From a virus, in IMG/VR virus record IMGVR_UViG_3300009285_003938, positions 1 to 44,258 of that record: a DNA stretch of 44,258 bases; one strand, given 5' to 3'. Of the stretch, positions 3,460 through 11,233 are shown in pieces; position 1 is the first letter of the stretch, and every line of letters starts with the position of its first letter. The notes under the pieces were generated by a model. It was not told the origin of the DNA. It saw only the letters and a program-made list of their open reading frames with translations, and did no database searches. A program made the translations under genes and the position numbers.

Positions 3460-4548
3460 ATGCAAACTTCAAAATTCATAAGGCGAGTTAAATCTGAGAT
3501 TTCAGAGTTAGAGAAGAAAGATAAAATATTACTAATTCCATCAGGTTCAACCCTTCTTAATTGCGCATGTTCGGATTCTCCGTTGGGGGCATTTAAGGCC
3601 GGGGAAATAGTAACATTGCCGGGAGCAAGCGCATCTGGCAAGACAATGCTTCTTTTTACGATGTTTGCCGAGATGTGTCAAATGAAAAAATTTGATGGTT
3701 ACGCATTAATTTATGACGATGCAGAGGAAGCATTGGCGATAAATATAAAAAGGTTATTCGGCTCAGATACGCAAGAAAGAGTAAAACCTCCAATTTATTC
3801 AAGTGAGGGTGATTCTATTTATAATCAAACAATACAAGATTTTCAAAACAGTATTTTATTGATGATTAAAAAAGAAAAGCCTTTTGTTTACGCGCTTGAT
3901 AGCCTTGATGCTCTTTCTTCGGACGAGGAGCTAGCACGAGAATATAAGAAAGCTATGTTGAGTGTCAAAGATCCTGAGCAATTAAAAAAGTTAAAGGGTT
4001 CTTATCATACAGAGAAGGCAAAAATTACAGGACAATGCTTACGTATGATAAGAGGAAAAATAAAAAACACAAAGTCTCTACTTATCATTGTTCAACAAGA
4101 AAGGGCGAATGTCGGAGGAGGCATGTTTGAAAAAGAAACAATTACAAGTGGAGGTAAAGCCCCTTTTTATTATTCTTCCCATCAAGTTTGGATGAAGCGA
4201 GTTAAGTCATTAAAGAAAAACGAAAAGAAAATCGGAAATAGAGTTAAAGCGATGGTGACAAAAAATAAGCTAACGGGCAAAGAGCGTAATGTAGAGTTTG
4301 ACATCTATGATCAATATGGAGTAGACGATATAGGAAGTCAGATAGATTTTCTTTTGGAAGAAGAAATATGGAAGAAAAGGAAAATGGAGATTGATGCTGT
4401 CGGGTTAGACGTATGCAAGATGAGAAGTGGATTGATAGCGCATATAGAAAAAGAGAATTTACAGCGAGAGTTACGTCGTATCACCGGGGAAGCCTGGAAT
4501 AAGATAGAGTCTGAATTGAAGTTGAATAGAAAGATGAAATATGAGTAA
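3460..4548 (+). CDS. UvsX/RecA-like recombinase
   Basis: A 362-residue P-loop ATPase of the RecA superfamily, predicted to form filaments on ssDNA and drive strand invasion. Walker A is GASASGKT (residues 55-62). The aspartate of Walker B is in FVYALDSLDAL (D147). A later LLIIVQQERANVGGG segment corresponds to the motif-3/L1 region, and SGGKAPFYYSSHQVWMKR resembles the L2-plus-beta-strand region of UvsX-type proteins. An acidic helical C-terminus follows. A DnaB/KaiC-type ATPase is the main alternative; the UvsY-like, gp32-like and Mre11/Rad50-like neighbours favour a recombinase. Confidence 0.8.
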   Translation: MQTSKFIRRVKSEISELEKKDKILLIPSGSTLLNCACSDSPLGAFKAGEIVTLPGASASGKTMLLFTMFAEMCQMKKFDGYALIYDDAEEALAINIKRLFGSDTQERVKPPIYSSEGDSIYNQTIQDFQNSILLMIKKEKPFVYALDSLDALSSDEELAREYKKAMLSVKDPEQLKKLKGSYHTEKAKITGQCLRMIRGKIKNTKSLLIIVQQERANVGGGMFEKETITSGGKAPFYYSSHQVWMKRVKSLKKNEKKIGNRVKAMVTKNKLTGKERNVEFDIYDQYGVDDIGSQIDFLLEEEIWKKRKMEIDAVGLDVCKMRSGLIAHIEKENLQRELRRITGEAWNKIESELKLNRKMKYE

Positions 4549-4756
4549 TTTATTATTTGCCCCAGAAGGTAAAAGCGAAATTATTGCAAAGGGAATAATT
4601 ACTAAATGTTTTTGCCAAAATTGTGGCCGCGACGAGCACATGAATATCGAACAACATTTTTTTATTTTAGTAAAAATTTTTTATGAAAAAAGGGTCTGTT
4701 TAGTTTGTGGACATAAGTTTTATTTTAAAAGAAAACCATTGGAGCATAAAAAATGA
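4541..4756 (+). CDS. Zinc-ribbon small protein
   Basis: This 71-residue protein carries two Cys pairs: CFCQNCG near residue 25 and CLVCGHKFYF near residue 55. Together they look like a zinc ribbon with a hydrophobic insert between them. The ATG overlaps the end of the recombinase gene by 8 nt, and its stop overlaps the next start, so it is part of a tight translationally coupled string. Its function is unknown. Confidence 0.65.
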   Translation: MSNLLFAPEGKSEIIAKGIITKCFCQNCGRDEHMNIEQHFFILVKIFYEKRVCLVCGHKFYFKRKPLEHKK

Positions 4757-4944
4757 TATATGTATATACCGCAGATAATTGTCTAAAGTGCGAGAAGTTA
4801 AAGGCAGAATTAAAGGCTAATGGCTCTATTTTTCAGGAACGTTCAGCTGACAGAATAAAATCTCCTATCGATGAGATTGACAGAGAGGCAATGGTAGAGG
4901 CTTCCTTTATGAATATGAGTTTGCCAATTATGGTGGAGGCATAA
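4753..4944 (+). CDS. Glutaredoxin-like protein
   Basis: A 63-residue protein starting MIYVYTADNCLKCEKLKAEL. A beta strand leads into a CxxC redox motif (C10, C13) and then a helix, as in glutaredoxins. The second half keeps an SLPIMVEA segment, which fits the cis-proline loop (x-x-P) that follows in the fold. It is shorter than typical glutaredoxins (about 80 residues), so it may be minimal. A role supplying electrons to host ribonucleotide reductase is typical for phage glutaredoxins but is not shown here. Confidence 0.7.
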   Translation: MIYVYTADNCLKCEKLKAELKANGSIFQERSADRIKSPIDEIDREAMVEASFMNMSLPIMVEA

Positions 4945-4946
4945 CA

Positions 4947-5453
4947 ATGAAAACGTACATAGGTATCGATAATGGAACTACGGGTACGATAACAATTATA
5001 AATGAGAATACTTCTGTTCATTTCAAAACCCCTATAAAAAAAGAACTTTCTTATACGAAGAAAAAACAATATATTTCCAGGATAGACTATATTCAATTAG
5101 GAATTATAATGGCAAGAAATATAAAACAAAACGATGTATTTTGCTTGATTGAAAGGCCTATGATAAACCCTATGAGATGGAAAGCCTCTATGTCTGCGAT
5201 AAGAGCGTTGGAGACAACACTTATTTATCTGGAAGAGCATTGGATACCTTATCAGTACATTGACTCTAAAGAATGGCAGAAATATTTCTTGCCTAAAAAT
5301 TTAAAGGTAAAGAAAAAAGGAGGAAGGAAAATATCTACTTCGGAACTTAAAGAAGCAGTAGTAGATATTGCAAGAAGATTGTTCCCTTCCATTAAAACAA
5401 AAGATGCTGACAGTGTACTTATCGCGGAATATGCCCGAAGGATGAAATATTGA
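4947..5453 (+). CDS. RuvC-like Holliday junction resolvase
   Basis: A 168-residue RNase H-fold nuclease. The start MKTYIGIDNGTTGTITI gives the first acidic residue (D8) on beta strand 1. The LIERP segment supplies E69, and the C-terminal KDADSVLIAEYARR supplies D153/D155, which is the RuvC order of D, E and D/D. RuvC enzymes cleave four-way junctions; in phages they also resolve branched DNA before packaging. It overlaps nothing and sits 2 nt after the glutaredoxin gene in the recombination cluster. A different RNase H-fold nuclease is possible but less likely. Confidence 0.8.
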   Translation: MKTYIGIDNGTTGTITIINENTSVHFKTPIKKELSYTKKKQYISRIDYIQLGIIMARNIKQNDVFCLIERPMINPMRWKASMSAIRALETTLIYLEEHWIPYQYIDSKEWQKYFLPKNLKVKKKGGRKISTSELKEAVVDIARRLFPSIKTKDADSVLIAEYARRMKY

Positions 5454-5454
5454 T

Positions 5455-5780
5455 ATGGATACTTTTTGGGAAGATAAGGTAGTTCATCAGTTAGCAATAT
5501 TGAAATACAAATTTAAGAAAAAATGTACAATAGAAAAGTTTGAATCGAAAATAATAAAAATGCTCTATGAAATGGAATGTTTTGCTGAAGGTCAATCTCC
5601 AATCGATCTTATATTTCAATGTCAAATGACAATGAAAGAAGAAACTAAAAAAAAGATTGTTGAGTTATTGAAAAATGAAATTGTCCTGACATAGTCTTCG
5701 ATGCTTTTCTGGGAGAATCGCTAAGATCGTCGAGAGATGAGGCGAATAGATTGTTGGCTATGTCAGGAAATTATAAATAA
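5455..5780 (+). CDS. Hypothetical protein whose two halves lie in different frames
   Basis: ATG 5455 opens a 79-codon frame that stops at 5694. In the -1 frame, right after that point, a coherent segment reads DIVFDAFLGESLRSSRDEAN then RLLAMSGNYK and stops at 5780, where TAATG overlaps the start of the HNH gene. The region is 326 nt long; one extra base (for example CC to CCC near 5685) would give a single 108-residue product. The first half is helical and charged (KKKIVELLKNEIV). I do not recognise the family. Either the gene is frame-shifted, a base is missing, or the second half is a separate product with a non-standard start. Confidence 0.5.
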
Positions 5781-6286
5781 TGTTTTTTAAATCTTCGGAT
5801 ATTCTTTCTATGTCATTTAAGGATTTAATGGGATGTAGATTTGGTAAATTAACAGTTCTCGGATTAGTAGGCCGAAGCATTAGCAGGCATTTAATTTGGA
5901 GGTGTTTATGTGATTGCGAAAATTTAACAGAGGTTTTATCTTCTAAATTAATAAATGGAGTAACTCAATCTTGTGGATGTTTACAAAAAGAAAGAACAAG
6001 AGAAATTCATTTTAAACATGGGAAGAGTAAAAGTAAAATTTATAGAACTTGGTCAGGAATGAAAGATAGGTGTTCTAATCAAAATAATGAGTTTTATTTT
6101 GATTATGGAGGTCGAGGAATTCAAGTGTGTGAAAGGTGGAAAGTCTTTATTAATTTTCTTTCAGATATGGGAGAACCTCCAACGTCCAGTATGACAATTG
6201 ATAGAATAGACGTAAATGGAAATTACGAGCCTGACAACTGTCGTTGGGCAACTTGGATAGAACAAAACAATAATAAAAGAAAATGA
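5780..6286 (+). CDS. HNH homing endonuclease
   Basis: A 168-residue HNH endonuclease of the type scattered through phage genomes. The N-terminal part (MSFKDLMGCRFGKLTVLGLV) is the common DNA-contact module, followed by CDCENLTEVLSSKL and QSCGCLQKE with paired cysteines. The HNH core runs from KHGKSKSKIYRTWSGMKDRC through a GGRGIQVCERW segment to NYEPDNCRWATW. Such genes spread by cutting cognate intronless or geneless sites. Translation may start at 5780 (AGGAA upstream) or at 5810. It splits the RuvC-like/hypothetical pair from the Rad50-like gene and looks like an insertion into the cluster. Confidence 0.85.
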   Translation: MFFKSSDILSMSFKDLMGCRFGKLTVLGLVGRSISRHLIWRCLCDCENLTEVLSSKLINGVTQSCGCLQKERTREIHFKHGKSKSKIYRTWSGMKDRCSNQNNEFYFDYGGRGIQVCERWKVFINFLSDMGEPPTSSMTIDRIDVNGNYEPDNCRWATWIEQNNNKRK

Positions 6287-6335
6287 AAAATTTATTTTAT
6301 AGTATGAAAGTTAGAAATTTTTACGAAAACAAGAA

Positions 6336-7256
6336 ATGACAATTAAAAGTTTAAAAATTTCTAACTTTCAAAGCCATGAAAAAACCTTCTTGAAATTTGA
6401 TAAGAGGTTAAATGTGGTCTGTGGGAAGACGGATAGTGGAAAGAGTGCGTTGCGCAGGGCGATTGAGTGGATTATTAACAATCGCCCTTCAGGAGAGTCT
6501 TTCAAATCAAAATGGGGCGGAGATACAAAGGTTGAATTGCGTGTTAAAGACAAAGGAGTCAAGTCGCTTATTTCAAGGAAGAAAGGGAGAGAGAATCTCT
6601 ATGTTCTCGGAGAGAAGAAATACAAGGCTTTCGGGCAGGATGTTCCAGAGGACATAAAGAAAGTTCTCAGAATGTCGTCGATAAATATCCAGAGCCAGAT
6701 ATCTCTTCCTTTCATGTTAACGATGTCGGCAGGGGAGACAGCTCGGTATCTAAATGAGACTGTTAATCTTGATGATATAGATATTGCATTATCAAATATC
6801 CAATCTACAATAAGACAAGAGAATGCTCGATTACAGGAAAGAAGATTATTAAAGTCTCAATATAAGTCTGATTTGATGTCTTATGAATGGGTCGATGAAA
6901 CAGAAAAAAGACTTATTTTTCTGGAGGTTCTTGACAATGAAATTCAATCTTTGAAAATGCAAGAAGAAGAAATTCAAGCAATCGTTCAAAAGATTAAATT
7001 AGAAGAAAAGCATTTTGAAAGGTTATCTGGGGTAGATATTGATTTTGTAGGCAAGGAATTAGCTAAGATAGAAAGTCTCTCAAAAGAAATAGAGAAAGAC
7101 AACGAATTAATTTCAAGTATTGAAAGTCTTATTTCAGACATAGATTATATGCAAAAAGAAATCAATTCTTTACAAGCAAGCAAGAAAAGTATAATAAAAG
7201 AGTTCGAGATATTGATGCCTGATGTTTGTCCTTTATGTGATCAAGAAATCAAATGA
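6336..7256 (+). CDS. Rad50/SbcC-like ATPase, N-terminal half with terminal zinc hook
   Basis: This 306-residue protein is the N-terminal half of an SMC/Rad50-type ATPase. It has a Walker A GKTDSGKS (residues 30-37) after the classic MTIKSLKISNFQSHEKT start, then a Q-loop-like INIQSQISLPF segment, then a long coiled coil (about 155-290). It ends exactly at a CPLC zinc-hook motif (C298, C301), 5 residues before the stop. The signature and Walker B half is missing here and lies in the gene at 10604-11233. With the Mre11-like nuclease at 8481 it likely forms a DNA-end-processing complex, as T4 gp46/gp47 do. Stand-alone halves of this kind occur in other phages, as far as I recall. Confidence 0.8.
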   Translation: MTIKSLKISNFQSHEKTFLKFDKRLNVVCGKTDSGKSALRRAIEWIINNRPSGESFKSKWGGDTKVELRVKDKGVKSLISRKKGRENLYVLGEKKYKAFGQDVPEDIKKVLRMSSINIQSQISLPFMLTMSAGETARYLNETVNLDDIDIALSNIQSTIRQENARLQERRLLKSQYKSDLMSYEWVDETEKRLIFLEVLDNEIQSLKMQEEEIQAIVQKIKLEEKHFERLSGVDIDFVGKELAKIESLSKEIEKDNELISSIESLISDIDYMQKEINSLQASKKSIIKEFEILMPDVCPLCDQEIK

Positions 7257-7405
7257 GAATATGTATAGTCTGTAAAAAATTAAAAGAAAAAGAATGTTTC
7301 TATAAGAATCCTGGCAATAGCACTGGATACGCAAAGAAATGTAAGTCTTGCGCCAGGCAGTATGCAAATGACAGAAGAAGAATTAAAAAAAGAAAACGAC
7401 GATAA
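7253..7405 (+). CDS. Small Cys-pair zinc-finger protein
   Basis: A 50-residue basic protein starting MRICIVCKKLKEKECFY, with two Cys pairs (CIVC and CKSC) about 28 residues apart and an Arg/Lys-rich tail. This looks like a treble-clef or HNH-like zinc finger without the nuclease part. It overlaps the previous stop (ATGA) and the next start (TAATG), which supports that it is translated. Its function is unknown; DNA or RNA binding is plausible from the basic tail. Confidence 0.7.
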   Translation: MRICIVCKKLKEKECFYKNPGNSTGYAKKCKSCARQYANDRRRIKKRKRR

Positions 7406-7842
7406 TGATTAAGAACTACACATCAACCGTACCCATAGAAAGATCAATTAACCATATAGAGGCTAAATTGGTAATTCATGGGGCTAAAGATATTATGAAA
7501 CGATACGATTCGGTAGGCAGACTCGAAAGTATCTGTTTCATTATTTTTGTATCTGGGAATAATATATCATTTAAACTACCGGCTAAGATAAATGCTTGTT
7601 GTGAAATATTGAAAGCGGAGATTAAAAGACCCAGAGACGGTACTTACGAAAAAGTCGAGAAACAAGCGGAAAGGACGGCATGGAAGTTGGTATCAGATTG
7701 GGTCGATATTCAAATATCAATGATTGAACTGCAACAAGCAGAATTTTTGGAGGTGTTTCTACCCTACGCCTATAATCCACAAAAACAACAAACATTTTAT
7801 GAGCAGATACGAGAATCAAAATTTTTGGCATTAACGAAATAG
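7405..7842 (+). CDS. Conserved phage hypothetical protein
   Basis: A 145-residue protein of a type I recognise from many phage early regions but cannot assign a function. The hallmarks are YTSTVPIERSINHIEAKLV at the start, a central VSGNNISFKLPAKI strand pair, KQAERTAWKLVSDWVDIQIS, and QAEFLEVFLPYA near the end. It is alpha/beta with no catalytic motif that I can name. The start overlaps the previous stop (TAATG). Its steady position beside the recombination genes suggests a DNA-metabolism role, which is inference. Confidence 0.75.
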   Translation: MIKNYTSTVPIERSINHIEAKLVIHGAKDIMKRYDSVGRLESICFIIFVSGNNISFKLPAKINACCEILKAEIKRPRDGTYEKVEKQAERTAWKLVSDWVDIQISMIELQQAEFLEVFLPYAYNPQKQQTFYEQIRESKFLALTK

Positions 7843-7858
7843 AAAGGGGTAAAATCAA

Positions 7859-8041
7859 ATGTTGCATAGGGGGTTTTATGAAAATCGATTAACCCAAGAT
7901 AATCTTAGAGAAAGTATGTTTTCAATAAAATGGAAAAAAGAAAATGACAGACCAGATGGATCACAACTTGTTCAAATGTTAATCCCGAAATGTACCGAAA
8001 GAGATACGGAAGTTGCCGCCACCACATTACAAATCAAATAG
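7859..8041 (+). CDS. Conserved small hypothetical protein
   Basis: A 60-residue protein beginning MLHRGFYENRLTQDNLRESM, with the closing motif RDTEVAATTLQIK that resembles a small conserved phage family (usually ending VAAT-x-IQW-L-G). The C-terminus seems shorter than in that family. The ribosome site AAAGGGG about 8 nt upstream is excellent. No function is known. Confidence 0.65.
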   Translation: MLHRGFYENRLTQDNLRESMFSIKWKKENDRPDGSQLVQMLIPKCTERDTEVAATTLQIK

Positions 8042-8113
8042 TATGGGAGTTATTAACGTGATAGAAGAATCAAAGGAGAATTTTTAAAGTAAAAATATAA
8101 GGAGTAGTGCAAG

Positions 8114-8479
8114 ATGAAAAATGCCGCTATATTTGGACTCATGGTTGAAGAAACTAAGGATAATTTAAATTCTGTTAATGGAGATTTGTTGGAAATATTA
8201 AAAGTGGCAATGGAATCTACGCATACTCATTGGTTAATGACAGATGAAGACGAACAATTTCAGGCCGCAATAGCTGCCGTTATGTTGTATTATGGAGAAG
8301 ATCGTGAGGAATATAAAAGGTTGAAATGGGAAGTTGAACAAATAAGAAAAGCTGTTGCCCTCGTTAACGCAATACAGGTCGGATTATCTATTTCTCTAGA
8401 TAGTTCTTTTGGAGAAAATTCAAAATTTTCTCCTATCGGATTATCTAAGTTATGGGCAGAGATTAAAAAGGGAAAATAA
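8114..8479 (+). CDS. Hypothetical helical protein
   Basis: A 121-residue, mostly helical acidic protein (MKNAAIFGLMVEETKDNLNS onwards) with an aromatic stretch, TDEDEQFQAAIAAVMLYYGE. No known domain is recognised. AAGGAG lies about 11 nt upstream of the start. The stop is 1 nt before the preferred start of the Mre11-like gene, so the two are likely co-translated. Confidence 0.6.
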   Translation: MKNAAIFGLMVEETKDNLNSVNGDLLEILKVAMESTHTHWLMTDEDEQFQAAIAAVMLYYGEDREEYKRLKWEVEQIRKAVALVNAIQVGLSISLDSSFGENSKFSPIGLSKLWAEIKKGK

Positions 8480-8480
8480 A

Positions 8481-9419
8481 ATGCAAAAAGATATTAATAC
8501 GAGTGATTTAATCCTTACAGCCGACTGGCACATTCGCTCTGATGTCCCTGAGAATAGAAAAGATGATTTCTTACATGCGCAAGAGAAAAAGATTGACTTC
8601 ATTCTCGCGCAATCTGATAAATATCAAGCTTCAATTCTTGTCGCAGGAGATTTAGGAGATAAGTCGAAGTGGGAAAACTGGCTTCTAGAGAAATATATTA
8701 AGAAATTCAAAGCGCATTCTCAAAAAATATATGTCTTGCCAGGGCAACATGATTTGCCTAATCATAGATTGGATAAATTATCTGAAAGTGGGTTGGGAGT
8801 TCTAGTCGCAGCTAAAGCAATAGAGGAGCTAAAAATACTATGGCCAAAAAATATTGGTGAAATATCTACGATGTATAATTTTCCATTTGGGCATCATATA
8901 AAAATGCCCTCCTCTTTCGCGCCTACCCATAGAAAAAATATTGCTATTGTTCATCAACTCATTGTGCAATCGAAATTGTGGGCGTCCCAGGAAAATTTCA
9001 TTTACGCGGAATCTCTTCTCAAGAAATTCCCTTGCTATGATTTAATTGTTTCTGGCGACAACCATCAGTCATTTGTAGAAAAATACAAAGACAGGATTCT
9101 CGTTAATCCAGGCTCTATCATGCGGTCAACTGTCGCGCAATATGATCATCAACCAAAAATTTATTTGTGGTGTGCGGAGGGCAATAGTGTCGAGGAGATA
9201 GAAATTCCAATTGTATTATCAAAGGATGTGTTTGATCTATCTCGTTCAGAGGAGATAAAGAAGAAAGACGAGAGAATGTTCGCGTTCATTGACTCGTTGC
9301 GTATGGATGGAGAGATCAAGATGAGTTTCAAGAAAAACCTTGAGTGGTTCTTCAGAAAAAATAGAGTCGATCAGCAAGTGAAAGATAAAATTTTCATGTC
9401 TTTAGAGAAAGGAAAATAG
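8481..9419 (+). CDS. Mre11/SbcD-like DNA repair nuclease
   Basis: This 312-residue calcineurin-fold metallophosphoesterase carries the five phosphodiesterase motifs: D15-x-H17 (TADWH), GDLGD at 56-60, GQHD at 88-91, IVHQ, and SGDNH followed by VNPGSIMRS. The family's usual GNHD is GQHD here, a variant I associate with phage SbcD-like proteins. The start is set at ATG 8481, after AAAGGGA; an upstream ATG at 8409 would overlap the preceding gene. With the two Rad50-like halves it should process double-strand ends for recombination. T4 gp47 is the best-known functional counterpart. Confidence 0.85.
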   Translation: MQKDINTSDLILTADWHIRSDVPENRKDDFLHAQEKKIDFILAQSDKYQASILVAGDLGDKSKWENWLLEKYIKKFKAHSQKIYVLPGQHDLPNHRLDKLSESGLGVLVAAKAIEELKILWPKNIGEISTMYNFPFGHHIKMPSSFAPTHRKNIAIVHQLIVQSKLWASQENFIYAESLLKKFPCYDLIVSGDNHQSFVEKYKDRILVNPGSIMRSTVAQYDHQPKIYLWCAEGNSVEEIEIPIVLSKDVFDLSRSEEIKKKDERMFAFIDSLRMDGEIKMSFKKNLEWFFRKNRVDQQVKDKIFMSLEKGK

Positions 9420-9698
9420 ATGCTGCGATTGTACCTCGCATTTTTATTTCTTATATCTTTAATTGCGACAAATGGGGGCGCGTATCAAAAAGAAGATGAT
9501 TGGATTAAGCATTGTGATATTCACCGATTTATTTGTGATGTTTGCGAAATAAGAGGAACTTTGCAAATTTATAATCGACATGTGCTTGAATGCTCTAATT
9601 GTAAATATCTAACTTTAATAAGTGATTATAAAAATCAACTGTATAGTATTTCTATTTGCAAAGAAATTAAATTGAATGCTCAAGATACAAAAATATAA
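9420..9698 (+). CDS. Exported or membrane-anchored small Cys-pair protein
   Basis: A 92-residue protein. Residues 4-18 (LYLAFLFLISLIATN) form a hydrophobic segment that looks like a signal peptide or anchor. The rest carries CDVC and CSNC pairs about 20 residues apart, as in a zinc ribbon. The start directly abuts the nuclease stop (TAGATG). Export of a zinc-ribbon protein from an early operon is unusual, so the N-terminus may instead be an inner-membrane anchor with the ribbon in the cytoplasm. Confidence 0.6.
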   Translation: MLRLYLAFLFLISLIATNGGAYQKEDDWIKHCDIHRFICDVCEIRGTLQIYNRHVLECSNCKYLTLISDYKNQLYSISICKEIKLNAQDTKI

Positions 9699-9712
9699 AA
9701 AGGGAGGATAAA

Positions 9713-9925
9713 ATGACGACAAAAGAATTAGCAATTAAGTTGATCATATCCAATCAAAAGATAGCGAATCTTACTAACCAATTGCTTGAATTAAGAAGAT
9801 ATGAAGCAGAAACAGAATTCTTACTTTTAGCAGAAATAGAAACAAATGACCAAGTGGAAAATATGCTGCGAGTCGAATTGGTCTGCGATGCTGCATATTT
9901 GCATACAAAAGAAAACGTAGGATAA
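9713..9925 (+). CDS. Hypothetical coiled-coil small protein
   Basis: A 70-residue, Leu/Glu-rich helical protein (MTTKELAIKLIISNQKIANL onwards), probably one long helix or coiled coil. A strong AAAGGGAGG ribosome site lies just upstream of ATG 9713. There is no recognised family. It is followed by the 97-nt sequence that is repeated in the right arm. Confidence 0.6.
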   Translation: MTTKELAIKLIISNQKIANLTNQLLELRRYEAETEFLLLAEIETNDQVENMLRVELVCDAAYLHTKENVG

Positions 9926-9932
9926 AGTCCTG

Positions 9933-10029
9933 TAAAGCGATTGAAAGTGAGTTCACGTATAAATACTAAAAAAGGGAGTTGAAACAGCGTACAAACGATC
10001 CTACAAAGGAATTCAAGGGATTAAAATGG
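9933..10029 (+). repeat. 97-nt inter-operon repeat, left copy
   Basis: This sequence matches the reverse complement of 31136-31232 at 94 of 97 positions with no gaps; the differences are at 9957, 9977 and 9978. Both copies are sense to the local transcription and lie between two genes. It contains GTGAGTTCAC (a near palindrome), an AT-rich TATAAATACT stretch, an A-run and an AAGGG-ATTAAA-ATGG ending. In this copy the ATG gives only MVV-stop; in the other copy the same ATG starts the tail-terminator gene. The right copy is therefore the likely source. Confidence 0.95.
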
Positions 10030-10045
10030 TAGTTTAGGAGTAAAT

Positions 10046-10324
10046 ATGACACTTTCTGAAAAATTAGTGGAATTAAAGGAAAAAATCGCTCAGAAAGCAA
10101 GCGAGATTGATAGGAGCAAAGGTAAGCTGTCTATGTTACACGATGATTTAAAAAAGATGGGATTTAAAGATATTCAATCTGCAAAAATAAAATTAAAAGA
10201 TATTCAAACGAATTTAAACAATAAGCAATTTATATTTAAAAGAAAAATAGTAAAATTAGAAAATATGATATCGACAGAATTCAAAGAAAAGCTCTCTATT
10301 ATATTCGGAGATGATGGAGAATAA
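10046..10324 (+). CDS. Small coiled-coil protein between the Rad50-like halves
   Basis: A 92-residue, almost entirely coiled-coil protein (LSEKLVELKEKIAQKASEID, then KIKLKDIQTNLNNKQF) with an acidic tip. AGGAG 7 nt upstream gives a firm start. It sits between the Mre11-like gene and the C-terminal Rad50-like half. Small coiled-coil proteins in this position are, as far as I recall, recurrent in phages with split SbcC genes. It may lengthen or bridge the coiled coil of the split ATPase; this is inference. Confidence 0.65.
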   Translation: MTLSEKLVELKEKIAQKASEIDRSKGKLSMLHDDLKKMGFKDIQSAKIKLKDIQTNLNNKQFIFKRKIVKLENMISTEFKEKLSIIFGDDGE

Positions 10325-10379
10325 GCCAATCTCTCCCTTTTCGACAAGAATTGATTAAATGGTTAAGGTGAATTAATAT

Positions 10380-10619
10380 ATGGTAGCTATATTTGTAAAT
10401 AAAAAGGACATTCCTAAAGAAATGATAGCAGATTCAAGATTGACATTCATATCTCAAAATAGCTGTATGATAGGAGACTGGCAAATTCAATCAACGAAAC
10501 AGTATTTCACGCTAGAGCATCTTATCATGTTTGACTATCTTAACCCGGTATCATGGACGATGCTCTTGGAGTTCATAGGCAATATTCCGCTAAAATTTCA
10601 ATCATGCTTCAACGCCTAA
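10380..10619 (+). CDS. Hypothetical protein overlapping the next gene
   Basis: A 79-residue ORF (MVAIFVNKKDIPKEMIADSR onwards) with an AAGGTG stretch upstream. Its last residues overlap the preferred start of the Rad50 C-terminal half by 16 nt, consistent with coupling. The composition is protein-like (YFTLEHLIMFDYLNP), but I do not recognise a family. If the next gene starts at 10553 instead, the overlap would be 67 nt. Confidence 0.5.
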   Translation: MVAIFVNKKDIPKEMIADSRLTFISQNSCMIGDWQIQSTKQYFTLEHLIMFDYLNPVSWTMLLEFIGNIPLKFQSCFNA

Positions 10620-11233
10620 GACAAATCATTGAACAGAAGAAAGGACAAAGAGACAAGGTTAATTCTCTTTTGTTATTTTGCAGGAAAGAGATTGCAGCCC
10701 TCAAAAAAGAACTAATCTATTCCGAGCAAGCACAGACGATCATTCAGAAGGTAGCTCAGGAAACGCAGAAGCAACTTGAATGGCACATAAGTGAGATAGT
10801 CACGCTTGCCCTCGCATCCACGTTTGACACCCCTTACACCTTTAAGGCTGAATTTGTAATGAAGCGAGGAAAGACGGAATGCAACCTTTTCTTTGAGCGA
10901 GACGGACATCAGGTTAATCCTGTCTTGGAAGCAGGTGGCGGAGCGGTTGACGTAGCAGCATTCGCCTTGCGAGTGGCTATGTGGTCATTATCAAAATCCA
11001 AATGGAGAAATACATTAATTTTTGATGAACCGTTCAAAAATATAAATGACAAAACAAGGAAGACGCAAGAAAGCGTTGCAAAAACAGTTAGGGAATTATC
11101 TAAAAAACTTAACCTGCAATTTATTATAATTACGATGCTTCCTGAATTCGAAGATATCGCCGATAGGATTTTTGAATTTAATCTTGTAAAAGGAAAGACG
11201 AAAATAGAAGCGAAACACAATGAAGAGACATAA
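10604..11233 (+). CDS. Rad50/SbcC-like ATPase, C-terminal half
   Basis: A 209-residue C-terminal ATPase half: a short coiled coil (residues 1-50), then HISEIVTLALASTF, the ABC-type signature region LEAGGGAVDVAAFALRVAMW (about 108-127) and Walker B TLIFDEP (137-143), followed by a D-loop-like KNIND. It pairs naturally with the N-terminal half at 6336-7256, which has Walker A. The start is uncertain: ATG 10553 is also in frame, but 10604 gives a start that coincides with the coiled coil. No good ribosome site precedes either, so coupling to the upstream ORF is likely. Confidence 0.8.
   Translation: MLQRLRQIIEQKKGQRDKVNSLLLFCRKEIAALKKELIYSEQAQTIIQKVAQETQKQLEWHISEIVTLALASTFDTPYTFKAEFVMKRGKTECNLFFERDGHQVNPVLEAGGGAVDVAAFALRVAMWSLSKSKWRNTLIFDEPFKNINDKTRKTQESVAKTVRELSKKLNLQFIIITMLPEFEDIADRIFEFNLVKGKTKIEAKHNEET

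Follow-up and report, generated by a model that had tools for sequence, protein, structure and literature searches.

A Rad50-Mre11 module of phages and bacteria with Rad50 apparently divided among three genes

Can a single Rad50 be assembled from several polypeptides, with its long hooked arm encoded apart from half of its ATPase head? The virus record IMGVR_UViG_3300009285_003938 raises this question. In its 44,258 bases (the whole stretch analysed, here called the window), a preliminary description had read four genes as a divided Rad50/SbcC with its nuclease, and we confirmed that this layout is real. All are on the plus strand: the N-terminal half of Rad50 (N-half, 6336..7256, an open reading frame [ORF] of 306 aa), an Mre11/SbcD-like nuclease (8481..9419), a small coiled-coil protein (small coil, 10046..10324, 92 aa) and the C-terminal half of Rad50 (C-half, 10604..11233, 209 aa). 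The two middle genes had been placed between the halves, and a metallophosphoesterase (Pfam Metallophos, 5.5e-8) and the 92-aa coil were found there. Judged from sequence, the locus is a real and widespread three-piece variant of Rad50-Mre11, in which we place the small coil on the arm by inference.

The N-half holds the features expected of lobe I of the head, an outgoing arm and a terminal zinc hook. Its Walker A motif, GKTDSGKS, spans 6423..6446 (residues 30-37), its Q-loop reads NIQSQ, and the hook motif CPLC at 7227..7238 (residues 298-301) stands 5 residues ahead of the stop; those residues are DQEIK, exactly as the protein end had been described. When its profile was compared with the PDB, the top matches were Rad50 N-lobes (3aux, 8.2e-14; 1ii8_A, 3.5e-12), and the protein falls in PHROG 16465 (exonuclease, 1.2e-29). 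An AlphaFold2 (AF2) model with a predicted local distance difference test (pLDDT) of 91.6 and a predicted template-modelling score (pTM) of 0.49 has helices at 184-230 and 235-293 and resembles lobe I of Rad50, SMC and RecF proteins (9a9j_A, E 4.5e-8; 1f2u_C, Z 14.5, root-mean-square deviation 2.5 over 127 residues, for families in the VIA list only). The fold alone fails to single out Rad50, because comparable scores were obtained for RecF and SMC chains.

The C-half would supply a short incoming coil and lobe II. Its frame is open over 10553-11233, and the ATG at 10604 fits homologues better. The signature and Walker B that had been assigned to it are present as AGGGAVD (signature position, 10931..10951) and TLIFDEP (11012..11032). 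Its profile retrieved Rad50 C-lobes as top PDB matches (3qkr_B, 3.8e-15; 1ii8_B, 1.6e-14), and it belongs to PHROG 15167 (ATPase, 2.6e-23). It had been asked whether the halves might be of different ATPase types, and the profile comparison answers that they are not, both matching Rad50 lobes. On these matches, the N-half is Rad50 lobe I and the C-half is Rad50 lobe II, which supports the earlier claim that the head must assemble from two chains, because both halves are lobes of Rad50. Rad50-head entries solved as two chains are among the best PDB matches of both halves, so that the natural split mirrors a division that crystallographers have made by hand. Lobe homology, gene linkage and a fusion described below (locus L516) strongly imply that one head is formed from the pieces.

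Conservation was assessed over 146 distinct C-half loci, the window included. They were collected by scanning viral contigs (seven scans) and genome contigs (one scan), and two phage records were added; this is a sample, since each query kept its best 80 relatives, of up to 461. All four genes are found in 129 of the 146 loci, and the order N-half, Mre11, small coil, C-half in 127. The N and C lobes lie on separate ORFs in every one of the 146, and no ORF among them joins N-half to C-half or small coil to C-half. Where at least 6 kb was available upstream of the C-half (128 loci), the N-half, Mre11 and the small coil were each found in 125. The N-halves absent from three loci (L014, L037 and L457) were found elsewhere in the record or genome, giving 128 of 128, and a small coil was likewise found elsewhere for all five loci tried (L014, L021, L037, L457 and L018). 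Similar halves had been mentioned for other phages, and they occur there and also as a chromosomal operon in bacteria. In the L014 genome (G001), both the N-half and the small coil map to 41-44 kb of contig C35 and do not adjoin the L014 C-half.

The motifs of the head and hook are as constant as the split. Among 129 complete loci, the Walker A Gly, Gly and Lys and the Q-loop Gln were each conserved in 128, the Walker B Asp and Glu in 129 each, and the Gly, Gly and Asp of the signature region in 128, 129 and 129, respectively; the first hook Cys was present in 129 and the second in 128. A CxxC lies 2-22 residues before the end of the protein in 131 of 132 N-halves (window included), and neither the 139 small coils nor the 146 C-halves contain one, which bears out the view that only the N-half has a hook. 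We infer that this CxxC sits at the arm apex and would bind zinc. The sole N-half without it (L061, 4319-5386) ends in CPFYNVICPL, two half-motifs, as if a hook had been doubled and broken. In Mre11, six metal-site Asp/His columns are conserved in 127-129 of the 129 complete loci. The GHxH-type motif of the nuclease (about 9054-9071 in the window) is mostly GDNH, with Asp in 101 and His in 28 of the 129; the GNHD-type motif splits between Gln (72) and Asn (57).

A fused relative, L516, lies outside the 146-locus set and was found by genome search. In the sequence as assembled, one 700-aa frame (G050, 4652-6754, minus strand) joins Mre11 (residues 5-255), lobe I (motifs from 337) and lobe II (501-680) with a short linker only. 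The long coil and hook are missing, and a search of its 10 kb found no small coil. We read L516 as an armless Mre11-Rad50 head, apparently a coil-less fusion of the same lineage; if the small coil is part of the arm, its loss along with the arm is expected.

The small coil itself is present in 139 of 146 loci, its profile matches exactly one ORF in 138, and it lies directly upstream of the C-half at a median gap of 16 bases. AF2 models it as a helix-turn-helix (helices 3-37 and 43-87, pLDDT 91.3). It had been suggested that this protein may complete the coil. One part of that suggestion stands, since the protein belongs to the module (125 of the 128 loci that have 6 kb or more upstream of the C-half); the other part, that it is a simple return strand, does not, and it fails on the lengths of the arm.

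Arm lengths could be measured in 116 of the 131 CxxC-bearing N-halves (15 had no anchor and were dropped), and they fall into classes of 150-165 (14), 192-215 (90), 234-251 (10) and about 300 (2). In the three-repeat class, similarity between column profiles peaks at lag 47 and is next highest at lag 94, out of 110 lags, and in 13 chromosomal N-halves these two lags again rank highest. The arm is thus a series of tandem 47-residue repeats, from two to about six, that are gained or lost whole. Repeat numbers were assigned over 132 N-halves, of which L178 was too short for a number and L011 and L023 (six and five) are length estimates. The window falls in the two-repeat class, with about two helical units at 6885..7175 on the plus strand (borders approximate), placed from the AF2 helices and the 47-residue period of relatives. 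A tree built from the head, with the arm excluded, has at least 25 changes of repeat number, although it is a quick tree with many weak forks. Locus L028 has exactly one 47-residue unit more than L026 and L029; the N-halves are 67-70% identical, and neither small coil nor C-half differs in size. Across the set, arm length correlates neither with small coil length (r 0.055) nor with C-half length (r 0.065), both pieces being constant. Because the arm changes in 47-residue steps while the other pieces stay constant, the small coil is not a length-matched return strand, and we rejected that plain form of the proposal. Arms with odd and with even repeat numbers alike retain the hook, so the units are probably added in line; for the same reason, we judge an up-and-down bundle of arm helices unlikely.

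Taken together, we consider it likely that the locus encodes an Mre11-Rad50 (SbcD-SbcC) DNA-end-processing complex whose Rad50 is built from three polypeptides. The N-half would supply lobe I, with Walker A and the Q-loop, together with the outgoing helical arm and its C-terminal zinc hook, and the C-half would supply the short incoming coil and lobe II, with the signature and Walker B. The two halves would pair into one ATP head, and two such heads may close on ATP around DNA ends, which Mre11 would cut. One zinc is expected to be shared by the hooks of two N-halves, whose arms it would join at the tips. The small coil would belong to the arm as a subunit, standing in for the absent return strand and probably packed on the 47-residue repeats; its place on the arm is implied by linkage, by the shared loss in L516 (one case) and by weak coevolution. 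In a phage, the complex might act in recombination-dependent replication or repair beside a RecA-like recombinase. In phage T4, gp46-gp47 carries out end processing for recombination-dependent replication.

A more specific form of this model, which we put forward tentatively and hold possible, is a modular arm of n identical 47-residue units (two to six), each backed by its own copy of the small hairpin, with the hook on the free chain end. The reading of one small coil per unit rests on each small-coil helix being about as long as one unit. Arm length would then be set by repeat number and by the supply of small coil, and the stoichiometry of the complex would change with repeat number.

Coevolution was examined by mean-field coupling with a reduced alphabet in 100 of the 129 complete loci, those of the three-repeat class. 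The top 100 pairs included 13 between N-half and C-half, 10 between N-half and Mre11, five between N-half and small coil, one between Mre11 and C-half, and none between Mre11 and small coil or between small coil and C-half. The best of 490 registers between the N-half arm and the C-half coil was antiparallel, with sum 205, as would be expected of two helices that leave the head together; the best of 474 between the arm and helix 1 of the small coil was also antiparallel, with sum 252. On subsampling (12 draws of 70 loci), the 205 register ranked 1-8 of 462 in 12 of 12 draws, and the small-coil register ranked 1-97 of 446, with other top matches near 299 and 349, one and two repeats further. 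Couplings between N-half and small coil repeat at lag 47, which ranks first of 90 lags, compared with rank 2 for the C-half coil, 2 for the C-half head, 6 for Mre11 and 8 for the N-half head.

Several observations weigh against the three-piece model. Although the antiparallel register of N-half and C-half coils is favoured, controls score as high: control registers with Mre11 reached 3.41 and 3.66, compared with 3.15 and 3.24, and the coevolution evidence for the pairing of the pieces is only suggestive because of this similarity. A noisier pseudo-likelihood coupling gave 13 pairs between Mre11 and C-half in its top 100, against 21 between N-half and C-half, and the score of the 47-residue ladder was equalled or exceeded by six of 74 control windows. 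The small-coil profile has no clear relative, its best PDB match being plectin (3.7e-4) followed by a Rad50 coil fragment (0.007); a Foldseek search of the model gave no match, and the protein belongs to no shared PHROG (none for the window copy, no single PHROG in more than two of 116 members). The signature position reads S/A-G-x-G-x-x-D and departs from the usual form. The canonical Rad50 signature is SGG-E/Q. The H-loop residue is His in 109 of the 129 complete loci, Asp in 19 and Met in one; the window alone has the Met (11151-11153 region), and its ATP cycle may differ for this reason. Finally, in Microbacterium phage Magritte (L012, L013), an N-half without a hook (gene 155) lies far from the C-half (gene 2), and there is no recognisable small coil, gene 1 being unlike it.

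Of the other explanations, the one that fares best concerns the small coil alone, which could have an accessory or regulatory role, comparable with that of Nbs1 in Mre11-Rad50, and share no more than the operon, with the arm unpaired or paired otherwise. A small coil whose length is independent of the arm (r 0.055), that has no clear similarity to Rad50 coils and whose coevolution signal with the N-half does not clearly exceed that of controls (six of 74 windows as high) would suit such a role. We nonetheless think it unlikely, given the loss of the small coil with the long coil in L516 (one case), its position directly upstream of the C-half and the rank of the 47-residue lag among the couplings (1 of 90).

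It has also to be considered that there is no return strand and that two N-half arms zip in parallel over their full length as a hook-closed rod, with the C-half coil bracing the base only. The near-constant presence of the small coil (139 of 146 loci) would then be left unexplained, and parallel pairing has no direct evidence. On the other hand, the arm varies freely in length while the C-half and small coil stay unchanged, and the AF2 model, with long helices, short breaks and a low pTM at a high pLDDT (0.49 and 91.6), fits an extended arm. We regard the rod as quite unlikely.

Very improbable is a lack of any shared head, whether because the halves are ATPases of different kinds or because a mutation, a frame error or a mobile insertion has disrupted Rad50, an idea to which the other small genes between the pieces, the HNH/AP2-like gene (named from its motif) by the N-half and an AP2 gene in Bacillus phage vB_BboS-125 lend some colour. 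The same split point, intact motifs and linkage recur in more than 100 divergent loci, whose halves are complementary Rad50 lobes that L516 has fused, and on these grounds we rejected a pseudogene, a frame error and two unrelated ATPases. Least probable of all is that the halves are joined post-translationally (split intein, trans-splicing) into an ordinary Rad50, which we rejected because the N-half stops 2-22 residues past the hook in 131 of 132 cases, leaving no room for an intein half, and because the lengths of the three pieces do not sum to a matched coil.

The three-piece Rad50 also seems to stand in for ordinary SbcCD in bacteria. We sampled 299 genomes from the phylum of the genome that carries L023, a Tissierellia metagenome-assembled genome, whose N-half had no viral relatives that a search could find. 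A C-half at E 1e-20 or better was found in 49 of the 299 (one of them the fusion and one a contig-end fragment), and SbcC (TIGR00618, E 1e-20) in 117. The two occur together in one genome, compared with 19.2 expected (Fisher p 9.7e-11, not corrected for kinship). The curated cut-off of TIGR00618 was passed by 0 of 20 split-operon genomes and 0 of the 299 sampled. Among 20 operon regions fetched, one was a contig end and 19 had the closely packed order Mre11, N-half, small coil, C-half, with the small coil recognised by profile in 16 and by position in all 19. With three more regions added, 22 of 22 chromosomal N-halves end in CPxC plus 13-25 residues. In L501, NCBIfam identifies CinA, RecA and RecX before the operon and RNase Y and TIGR00282 after it, with the operon genes themselves far below every NCBIfam cut-off; the neighbourhood of L504 is similar by sequence. 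These results suggest that a sizeable set of bacteria without a recognised SbcC carries the split version instead, annotated only as an unrelated ATPase and hypothetical genes.

The closest known systems are Rad50-Mre11 and SbcC-SbcD (archaeal Rad50, E. coli SbcCD, T4 gp46-gp47), which share with the split form the lobe motifs, a CxxC-hooked helical arm and an adjoining Mre11-type nuclease; archaeal Rad50 is the first match for the profiles of both halves. The split form differs from them in having three chains rather than one, a hook at a C terminus rather than in mid-chain, an arm of 47-residue repeats, an extra gene for the small coil and a changed signature motif. Fusions of Mre11 with Rad50 have been described in viruses and bacteria, among them one in a Bacillus phage for which the authors did not observe one of the SbcC P-loop segments (PMC3175470). 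The same genes are rearranged there in another way, with Mre11 joined to Rad50, whereas here Rad50 is divided. A DNA polymerase III alpha of jumbo phages is divided into two proteins that are thought to reconstitute one enzyme (PMC7824862); this is likewise a replication enzyme of two proteins but a different one, and the accessible part of the source mentions SbcC/SbcD without a split Rad50.

What was already known is that the halves exist as separate entries in databases: PHROG 16465 and PHROG 15167 hold the N-half and C-half as separate phage families, not stated to be one Rad50, and the halves of Bacillus phage vB_BboS-125 are annotated "exonuclease" and "ATPase". The three-piece Rad50, the small coil and the arm repeats appear to be new. 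A split Rad50 is not described in the accessible parts of PMC6375668, PMC7824862, PMC12153180, PMC3175470, PMC8066314 and PMC9389158, and we found no description of the split, the third piece or the repeats in the open-access PMC literature, in keeping with the earlier remark that the architecture has little experimental description.

No part of this universal repair machine is understood less well than the long hooked arm of Rad50, since one chain normally carries head, coil and hook together. In the divided form, separate genes encode lobe I plus its hooked arm, lobe II and the presumed arm partner; relatives occur in nature with exactly one arm repeat more or fewer (L028 compared with L026 and L029) or with no arm at all (L516). 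Arm length, hook and strand pairing could therefore be tested by mixing pieces.

In the window, the module sits in a recombination region, since a RecA/UvsX-like recombinase (3460..4548, plus strand; Pfam RecA, 9.9e-23; PHROG 97, UvsX-like, 1.3e-34) and a RuvC-like Holliday junction resolvase (4947..5453, plus strand; PHROG 1770, 4.6e-13) lie upstream. For the 118 loci that have an N-half and more than 3 kb upstream of it, a relative of the recombinase is present in 95 and, by pairwise search, one of the resolvase in 17. Directly upstream of the N-half, the gene at 5780-6286, which has no Pfam match, is presumably an HNH/AP2 homing-type endonuclease, a name we give it from its motif. In Bacillus phage vB_BboS-125, the annotated AP2 gene lies between the N-half and the small coil. 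Between the halves of the window there are further small ORFs that the preliminary description had not listed, at 7253-7405, 7405-7842, 8114-8479, 9420-9698, 9713-9925 and 10380-10619. The first of these encodes a Cys-rich, basic protein of 50 aa, and its start lies within the stop codon of the N-half.

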